A DNA stretch of 41,974 nt from Gemmatimonadaceae bacterium (lineage in GTDB: Bacteria; Gemmatimonadota; Gemmatimonadetes; Gemmatimonadales; Gemmatimonadaceae): assembly GCA_025928185.1 (NCBI GenBank), contig JAICKA010000018.1:1-41974 (forward strand). The letters are read 5' to 3'. Every line of letters begins with the position of its first letter. Position 1 is the stretch's first letter. Below the pieces are notes generated by a model. The model made no database searches and was not told the origin of the DNA. It worked only from the letters and a program-made list of their open reading frames with translations. This document shows, piece by piece, positions 33,262 to 35,557 of this stretch. The position numbers and the translations under genes were made by a program.

Positions 33262-33372
33262 CCCGCGGCCTTCATCGGCGAGCCCGGTGGCGGTATCATC
33301 AGCAGTCGCTTCACTCCGAAGCGCGCCACCCACTTTCCAGCCCCGGGAATCCGGGTCTCCGAGGATCGAGCG

Positions 33373-33756
33373 TTGAGCGTCAAGATCGTGCACACCGACA
33401 AGGCACCGGCCGCCATCGGCCCGTACTCGCAGGGCATCGTCGCGAATGGCTTTCTTTTCACCGCGGGACAAATCGCGATCGATCCGGCCACCGGACAGAT
33501 CGTTCAGGGCGATGTCGCCGCGCAAACCGAGCGCGTGATGCAGAATCTCGCGGCGGTACTGTCGAGCGCGGGCGCCTCGTGGAAGGACGTCGTCAAGACG
33601 ACCGTGTTCCTGCACGACATGAGCGACTTTCCGGTCGTGAACGAGACGTACGGCCGCGCGCTCGGCGACGCACGGCCGGCCCGTTCAACGGTGCAGGTCT
33701 CGGCGCTGCCGCGCGGCGTCCTCGTCGAGATCGAGGCGGTCGCCGCCCTGTCATGA
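33373..33756 (+). CDS. ridA: RidA-family reactive enamine/imine deaminase
   Basis: This 127-residue protein clears 2-aminoacrylate and similar intermediates made by PLP enzymes. The family marks are APAAIGPYSQGIVANGFLFTAGQ and ARPARSTVQVSALPRGVLVEIEAVA, with the substrate-binding Arg in PARSTVQV. The start is TTG at 33373, with GAGG nine bases upstream; no ATG fits. The 111-bp gap upstream holds only a weak CCCGGG hairpin near 33342. Confidence 0.94.
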   Translation: MSVKIVHTDKAPAAIGPYSQGIVANGFLFTAGQIAIDPATGQIVQGDVAAQTERVMQNLAAVLSSAGASWKDVVKTTVFLHDMSDFPVVNETYGRALGDARPARSTVQVSALPRGVLVEIEAVAALS

Positions 33757-33766
33757 GCAGTCTCGA

Positions 33767-34825
33767 ATGACGGATCGAGCACGCGGCGCCGCGAACACGC
33801 GTGAGGAGCTCTTTCGCCTCACCGCGTTCGCGCGCTGCGCCGGCTGAGCGGCCAAGCTGGGTCCGGGCGACCTCACGCGCGCGCTCGGTGGTCTTCCCGT
33901 GCAGTCGGATCCGCGCCTGATCGTGGGGCGCGAGACCTTCGACGACGCGGGGATCTTCGTGCTGTCCGACGATCTCGCCCTGGTCCAGACGGTGGATTTC
34001 TTCGCGCCGATCGTCGACGACCCATATCTGTTCGGGCAGATCGCCGCGGCCAACGCGCTCTCCGACGTCTATGCGATGGGCGGCGAGCCGCTGACCGCGA
34101 TGAACATCGTCGGATTTCCCACCGCCGCGCTGCCGATTACCGTGCTCACCGACATCCTGCGCGGCGCGCAGGACAAGGTGCACGAGGCGGGCGCCGTGAT
34201 CGTCGGTGGCCACAGCATCATCGACGAAGAATTGAAGTTTGGGCTTTCCGTGACTGGCCGCGTGCATCCGGCACGAATTCTCAGCAATGCCAATGCATCG
34301 GTCGGCGATCGGCTCGTGCTCACCAAGCCGCTCGGCACCGGGATCCTCGCCACGGTCGGCAAAGCTGGCGAGCTCGGCGTCGCTGAAGCCGAGGCGCTGC
34401 ACGCCTCGATGGGTCAGCTCAACCGCGAAGCCAGCCGTGCGGCCCTCGAGATGAACGCACGCTGCGCCACCGACATCACCGGCTTTGGTCTGCTCGGCCA
34501 CGCGTCGCACATTGCCGCTGCAAGTAGTGTGACGCTTCTCATCGACACGCGACGTGTGCCCGTCCTTCCCGGAGCACTCGAAGCCGCCGTGCGCGGCGTG
34601 CGAACCGGTGGTGCCGAGCGCAACGCGACGTACCTCGAGCCGCTGGTCGACTGGAGCGGAAGCACGGACGCGTTGCGCGCCGTGCTCGTCGATCCGCAGA
34701 CGTCCGGTGGGCTGCTCGTCGCCGTGCCTCGTGATCGTGCGCGCGACTATGTTTCCCTCGTTCAGGGGGCCGTCGAGATCGGCGAGGTAGTATCGCGCCG
34801 ACAGTTCGGGCTCGTGCTTGCGTGA
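33767..34825 (+). CDS. selD: Selenide, water dikinase SelD, a selenoprotein with in-frame TGA
   Basis: SelD makes selenophosphate from selenide and ATP for selenocysteine and selenouridine. The reading frame runs from ATG 33767 (MTDRARGAANTREELFRLTAFARCAG) through TGA at 33845-33847 into AAKLGPGDL and on to LVLA at 34825, giving 352 residues if TGA is read as Sec27. SelD proteins carry Cys or Sec just here (GC/U-x-x-K), and Lys30 follows. Further marks are QTVDFFAPIVDDPYLFGQI, ANALSDVYAMGGEPLTAMN, GGHSI and DPQTSGGLLVAV. Automatic callers would start at the internal GTG 33899 and lose the active site. tRNA-Sec follows seven bases later. Confidence 0.95.
33859..33873 (+). promoter_or_regulatory. 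SECIS-like hairpin after the selD TGA
   Basis: GGGTC (33859-33863) pairs with GACCT (33869-33873) around the loop CGGGC, giving four Watson-Crick pairs and one G-T. The loop starts 17 nt after the TGA and has G at its second place, as in the bacterial SECIS rule. SelB binding is inferred. Confidence 0.55.
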
Positions 34826-34832
34826 CCTCAAT

Positions 34833-34930
34833 GGGAGTGGATGGAGCCTGGTGGCTCTCACGGTCTTCAAAACCGTTCGCGACCTGACCATGTCGGGTTG
34901 GGTGGGTTCGATTCCCATGCACTCCCGCCA
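34833..34930 (+). tRNA. selC: tRNA-Sec (anticodon TCA)
   Basis: This 98-nt tRNA has acceptor GGGAGTG (34833-34839) pairing with CACTCCC (34920-34926), discriminator G and encoded CCA (34928-34930). The anticodon stem ACGGT/ACCGT (34860-34876) holds loop CTTCAAA with TCA at 34867-34869. A long variable arm (CCTGAC/GTCGGG) and an extended D stem are typical of tRNA-Sec. It starts seven bases after selD and has no room for its own promoter, so it is probably co-transcribed with selD. Confidence 0.96.
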
Positions 34931-34981
34931 CGCTGCATCGGCCGGTCGCGTTCCAGTCGAAGTCTTCGCCATTCGTATTTC

Positions 34982-35557
34982 GTGAAGCCATTGTCGCGTG
35001 TCGCAACGCTCCTCGTGCTCGCCGTCGCGGTGTTGCCGCTGGCTGCTCGTGCGCGACCACTCGCGGCGCAGCAGCCCGACAGCGCGCGGCAGTTCAGCCG
35101 GGACACGATCGCGGCGGACTCGGTCAAACCCCCGCTCACGCCCGCGCGCGCCTTTCTGTATTCGTTCATTGCGCCAGGGCTGGGGCAGAGCATCCTCGGA
35201 CGGCACAAGGCGGCGGCAGGCTTTCTCCTCGTCGAGGCGATTTCAGCGATCATGATTCGTGAATCGGCCGCCGACGTGCACGAAGCGCGGCGCATCCAGG
35301 ACGACACGATCGTCAACTCGTACGTCGATGGACTCGGTCAGCCGTCTCTGCAGGTCGCAGCGCCGCAATTCAACGGGGCGTACGTGCACGCGCGCCAGGC
35401 GCACGTCGAAGACTGGATCGCGCTGCTCGTTGCCAACCATCTACTCGCCGGTGTCGACGCATTCGTCGCGGCCAATCTCTGGGACGTCGGCGCGCACCTG
35501 GGACTGCGCCTCGCGCCGGGCAGCGCGACGATGACCGCTTCACTCAAGTTGCGATGA
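34982..35557 (+). CDS. Exported DUF5683-like protein
   Basis: This protein of about 191 residues starts most likely at GTG 34982, giving the signal peptide VKPLSRVATLLVLAVAVLPLAARARPLAA. The mature part has PARAFLYSFIAPGLGQSILGRHKAAAGFLLVEAISAIM, the Pro/Gly-rich membrane hairpin of DUF5683-like proteins, and a later hydrophobic DWIALLVANHLLAGVDAFVAANLW. The open frame upstream runs through tRNA-Sec and is not coding. No ATG fits, so the start is uncertain. Its stop overlaps murI by four bases. Confidence 0.7.
   Translation: MKPLSRVATLLVLAVAVLPLAARARPLAAQQPDSARQFSRDTIAADSVKPPLTPARAFLYSFIAPGLGQSILGRHKAAAGFLLVEAISAIMIRESAADVHEARRIQDDTIVNSYVDGLGQPSLQVAAPQFNGAYVHARQAHVEDWIALLVANHLLAGVDAFVAANLWDVGAHLGLRLAPGSATMTASLKLR

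Follow-up and report, generated by a model that had tools for sequence, protein, structure and literature searches.

Selenocysteine codon of selD

The window, which is the whole stretch of 41,974 nucleotides analysed here from a Gemmatimonadaceae bacterium, carries a selD gene whose codon-27 UGA is almost certainly read as selenocysteine (Sec) and not as a stop. On comparative sequence evidence, we are highly confident that selD is a genuine selenoprotein gene in which Sec would be inserted at UGA27 by way of SelB and a hairpin, tRNA-Sec and SelA. Sec-SelD is well known in other bacteria, and the finding is correct but ordinary, of low surprise. In the sections consulted, PMC1794560 and PMC13188914 place Sec-SelD among the commonest bacterial selenoproteins in print, and these two papers together with PMC4561486 bear out a statement of the earlier sequence-only reading of this DNA, that Sec-SelD is known elsewhere. 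The features of the locus are as follows:

33767..34825, plus strand: selD, selenide, water dikinase (selenophosphate synthetase), 352 residues with the codon-27 UGA taken as Sec
33845..33847, plus strand: in-frame TGA at the Sec/Cys position, residue 27, placed by translation, the codons of relatives and the 3u0o alignment
33373..33758, plus strand: RidA/L-PSP family gene (PF01042), the upstream neighbour, ending 8 nt before the selD ATG

The sequence-only reading had proposed that the frame from ATG 33767 runs open through the TGA at 33845-33847 and that nothing else interrupts it. Translation with TGA taken as Sec confirmed both points, giving exactly one internal stop (U27) and a terminal TGA in 33767-34825. 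No ATG, GTG or TTG was found in the selD frame from the stop TGA 33638 to ATG 33767, nor in the selD codons between ATG 33767 and the in-frame TGA. The product matched the selD model TIGR00476 at 376 bits against a curated cut-off of 125 (hmmscan), and a phmmer alignment placed residue 27 on Cys17 and K30 on Lys20 of 3u0o within one ungapped stretch. We take U27 and K30 (C17 and K20 of 3u0o) to be catalytic in the N-terminal loop of SelD.

Sec and Cys at codon 27 among relatives

A total of 148 genomes, the window's included, were searched with the SelD protein, and 113 of them gave a selD match above 100 bits. The number of selD loci extracted was 111, G135 and G142 being left out as C-terminal pieces only. 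G133 and G124 did not contain residue 27, leaving 109 selD genes with the residue covered, the window's included. Codon 27 was TGA in 81 of these genes and TGC or TGT in the other 28. Together with the alignment to Cys17 of 3u0o, this agrees with the earlier claim that the TGA stands at the Cys/Sec residue of SelD. The window's family, f1 (Gemmatimonadaceae-like), contributed 61 selD genes, 42 with TGA and 19 with Cys codons, and the sister families f2 and f3 together had 39 and 9, respectively. The codon was mixed within one genus, with Sec in the window's own genome (G000), G001, G003 and G005 and Cys in G002 and G004; tRNA-Sec adjoined selD in all six.

The Cys codon found here in 28 of 109 genes, the same-genus G002 and G004 among them, would fit a sequencing or assembly error in the window, with TGC or TGT as the true codon. 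However, TGA was present in the same-genus G001, G003 and G005 and in 42 of the 61 f1 genes, the window's included, and the window copy bears a Sec-type hairpin that was found in none of 19 Cys genes (see below). Because TGA recurs in relatives and the Sec-type hairpin is absent from the Cys versions, a base error is very unlikely. Alternatively, selD could be a pseudogene, or be translated only from an internal start past the TGA, and a mechanical open reading frame of 308 aa does begin at GTG 33899. The product of this frame, however, would be without the catalytic residue and its loop. Moreover, relatives conserve both sides of the TGA, and no further stop was found in the aligned part of any of the 81 Sec selD genes. 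We regard a pseudogene or an internal start as hardly credible, and prefer a full-length SelD with Sec at residue 27.

A scan of named genomes, from which the best 80 of 544 selD loci were kept and which thus covers near relatives only, gave TGA at codon 27 in 59 loci, Cys in 20 and a missing residue in 1. The best 12 of the 80 listed loci came from Gemmatimonadetes or Gemmatimonadaceae MAGs and were 63 to 75% identical, so that by its SelD the window belongs to Gemmatimonadaceae or close by. A quick SelD tree was also made with 106 proteins; 3 of the 109 were too short and were left out, and residues up to about position 44 were excluded. The fewest Sec/Cys changes on this tree were 15, a rough and undirected figure since the tree was weakly resolved, with 34 of 103 inner branches left open. 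In the sections consulted, PMC1794560 reports Sec-to-Cys changes in SelD and no Cys-to-Sec change, and PMC4561486 reports one Cys-to-Sec case, in Pasteurellales. Repeated Sec/Cys switching may be a less familiar aspect of SelD, and because the codon differs within one genus, the window's family offers a handy natural series for studying this exchange.

Putative SECIS hairpin after the UGA

33860..33872, plus strand: putative bacterial SECIS hairpin core, GGUC-CGGGC-GACC, with 16 nt from UGA to loop, proposed from pairing across the family

Conservation of this hairpin was compared between Sec and Cys genes. In f1, every one of the 42 Sec genes forms all four GGUC/GACC pairs and none of the 19 Cys genes does so, a contrast uncorrected for shared descent. 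The Gly codon in the hairpin was GGT in 42 of 42 Sec genes versus 2 of the 17 Cys genes with Gly (Fisher p 3.4e-12, again uncorrected for shared descent), and 38 of the 42 Sec genes have a G at loop position 1 or 2. The bacterial SECIS (bSECIS) model given in the Figure 2A legend of PMC13188914, a source consulted in part, has a loop of 3-9 nt, a stem of 4-16 bp, a G at loop position 1 or 2, a distance of 16-37 nt from the UGA and an MFE of at most -7.5. The window hairpin, with a loop of 5, a stem of 4 bp plus a G-U pair, a G at loop position 2 and a spacing of 16, lies within this model in these respects. Its local fold of -6.8 kcal/mol over 25 nt is short of the model's -7.5, although the length basis may differ, and its 13-nt core gave -3.3 kcal/mol. 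The 61-nt segment after the window's UGA folded no better than shuffles (z 0.38), and a free 60-nt fold preferred another structure, the named hairpin having a pair probability of about 0.003. Thus, no support for a SECIS was gained from free folding of the window segment alone.

In f2 and f3, a hairpin GCGCAG-GUN-CUGCGY was found 33 nt past the UGA; 37 of 39 Sec genes, and none of the 9 Cys genes, form all six of its pairs. Its loop begins with G, U and matches the published bSECIS model. This second type was found in 0 of the 42 Sec genes of f1; conversely, only one of the 39 f2/f3 Sec genes has the window-type hairpin. Since each type is nearly absent from the other group, f1 and f2/f3 appear to use different hairpins.

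An extra hairpin, CUCGGC-NNN-GCCGAG with a variable loop, was also seen at codons 4-9 past the UGA in most Sec genes of f2/f3 selD (L160-L209). It has a C-rich loop and lies upstream of the SECIS-fitting hairpin; 0.927 of its cells were paired versus 0.897 in column shuffles, a slight excess, though none of 500 shuffles reached it. A non-canonical SECIS in f2/f3, considered on account of this C-rich first hairpin, was dropped because the second hairpin at 33 nt fits the published model.

Sec machinery in the genome

34833..34930, plus strand: tRNA-Sec gene (selC) with UCA anticodon, matched by Rfam RF01852 at 74.2 bits (34833-34926) and by ARAGORN

Both Rfam and ARAGORN start this tRNA-Sec 7 nt past the selD stop, a gene that the sequence-only reading had not mentioned. 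That reading had held that the genome reads UGA as Sec and had named selA and selB as the genes to look for. The source genome is a draft of 3.71 Mb in 288 contigs, 90.1% complete and with 5.3% contamination. One selA match was found in it (contig C278, 542.7 bits, cut-off 267.9), together with one over-cut-off selB match among 8 (contig C78, 356.7 bits versus 242.25). Both genes are therefore present above curated cut-offs, on contigs other than selD's, to be read with the draft state and contamination in mind. The presence of selA, selB and tRNA-Sec supports the view that this genome reads UGA as Sec. For TIGR03167, the tRNA 2-selenouridine synthase, no match was found in the own draft genome, and a further role of SelD in making selenouridine was set aside, the absence being unproven in a draft. 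Across the 148 genomes, 97 combined selD with an over-cut-off selA and a tRNA-Sec scoring 60 bits or more, 30 had none of the three and 21 had a partial set, the partial sets being no doubt due in part to draft genomes; selB exceeded its cut-off in 104 of the 148.

A genome-wide reassignment of UGA to another amino acid, e.g. Trp, would also leave the selD frame open, and a sense UGA fitting this frame was all the support found for it. However, selD itself terminates with TGA, the 28 non-TGA genes all have Cys and no other residue at codon 27, and tRNA-Sec with a UCA anticodon, selA and selB are present. Reassignment is thus extremely improbable, and Sec is retained as the reading of UGA27.

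Other candidate selenoproteins

Further candidates were sought in TIGR01591 and PF00578 only, giving three selenoprotein candidates in the genome, SelD included:

G000:C134:51682-53601, minus strand: formate dehydrogenase alpha subunit (FdhA; L120, L210), one in-frame TGA, second selenoprotein gene
G000:C146:119379-119762, minus strand: peroxiredoxin-like AhpC/TSA gene (L274), one TGA, third candidate selenoprotein

FdhA scored 660.5 bits, just under the family cut-off of 666.25 (TIGR01591). Its single TGA lies in DSCNRTUHAPSVVG, presumably at the Sec site of formate dehydrogenases. A six-pair hairpin with the loop GGUCU followed the TGA in 35 of 35 extracted FdhA genes (30 + 5), which were all the listed matches with one TGA, and the four most distant of these genes showed changed pairs in the hairpin. 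In the AhpC/TSA gene, the TGA lies in PKARTKGUTIQ; downstream, at 21 nt from the TGA, is a hairpin of 7 bp with the 8-nt loop CGUGAUCA. Its TKGU fits the TxxU motif tabulated for Sec-peroxiredoxin in the consulted part of PMC13188914.

Gene callers that take UGA as a stop will shorten selD, and probably also the FdhA and peroxiredoxin-like genes of this genome. Among the titles listed by searches of a PMC library, none was on selenoproteins of Gemmatimonadota, a result that carries no claim of priority. Likewise, "Gemmatimonad" is absent from the main text of PMC4561486, PMC13188914, PMC5029168 and PMC5330540.

Proposed route of Sec insertion

The route proposed here draws on what was observed, namely the frame with its conserved TGA, the machinery genes, the two other single-TGA genes and the conserved hairpin. 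SelB on the hairpin just past the UGA would direct the ribosome to insert Sec at codon 27. The tRNA-Sec, from the gene 7 nt behind selD, would first receive serine from SerRS, and SelA would use selenophosphate to convert the charged tRNA. In full-length SelD, Sec27 and Lys30 of the N-terminal loop would make selenophosphate from selenide and ATP, and since SelD makes selenophosphate, its own product would be needed for its translation. The steps of the Sec pathway are established, according to the Introductions of PMC1794560 and PMC13188914; for the window organism, we infer Sec insertion, the contact between SelB and the hairpin, and SelD catalysis.

Gene order of selD and tRNA-Sec

Of the 61 f1 loci, 53 have tRNA-Sec following selD on the same strand. 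Six of the eight misses have fewer than 200 bases of sequence past the selD match, and in three of these (G007, G061 and G085) tRNA-Sec adjoins, by coordinates, a separate C-terminal selD piece. In the other two (G020 and G035), SelD is a divergent Cys form placed on a long branch; tRNA-Sec lies upstream of it on the same strand, and selA and selB are no more than about 4 kb away. The median gap between selD and tRNA-Sec was about 7 nt, as estimated from 41 f1 loci aligned to residue 351 or 352 with the stop codon assumed directly after. In f2/f3, tRNA-Sec was found behind selD in 0 of 50 loci, within 410-512 nt after the gene, and many of these genomes carry tRNA-Sec elsewhere. The tight selD-tRNA-Sec order in f1 may be another less familiar aspect of this system.

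After tRNA-Sec, the window encodes a protein of 191 aa (34982-35557) whose match to DUF5683 stays below threshold (24.6 bits, cut-off 26.7).

The f1 order could mean that selD and tRNA-Sec are one transcription unit, forming a selenium-gated positive loop over two machinery parts. At low selenium, UGA27 would stay unread, and early termination would cause polarity in selD and less tRNA-Sec too. A sigma-70-type consensus scan of 33300-35050, which would detect other kinds of promoter only poorly, found no promoter-like site. Such a gate would not be the sole reason for the gene order, because 15 Cys-SelD loci of f1 keep it. We consider the selenium-gated loop rather improbable.

Comparison with known systems

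The Cys-SelD 3u0o (named Selenide, water dikinase) belongs to the same family as the window SelD (217 bits, phmmer), but has Cys at residue 17, where the window SelD has a Sec codon. Compared with Sec-SelD of other bacteria, no difference was seen in the window protein: TGA was present at the same codon in 52 of the 67 listed loci outside the phylum, and Cys in 15, these loci being the nearest relatives. The gene order, on the other hand, sets the window apart from them. While the window locus has tRNA-Sec behind selD, this was the case in 0 of the 67 listed out-of-phylum named loci, scanned up to 600 nt (63 of 67 with at least 600 nt). The clusters of tRNA-Sec with selA and selB described in PMC5330540, in the sections consulted, resemble the window in that tRNA-Sec is linked to genes of the Sec machinery. 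Unlike in those clusters, the tRNA-Sec of the window follows selD, and selA and selB are located on different contigs.
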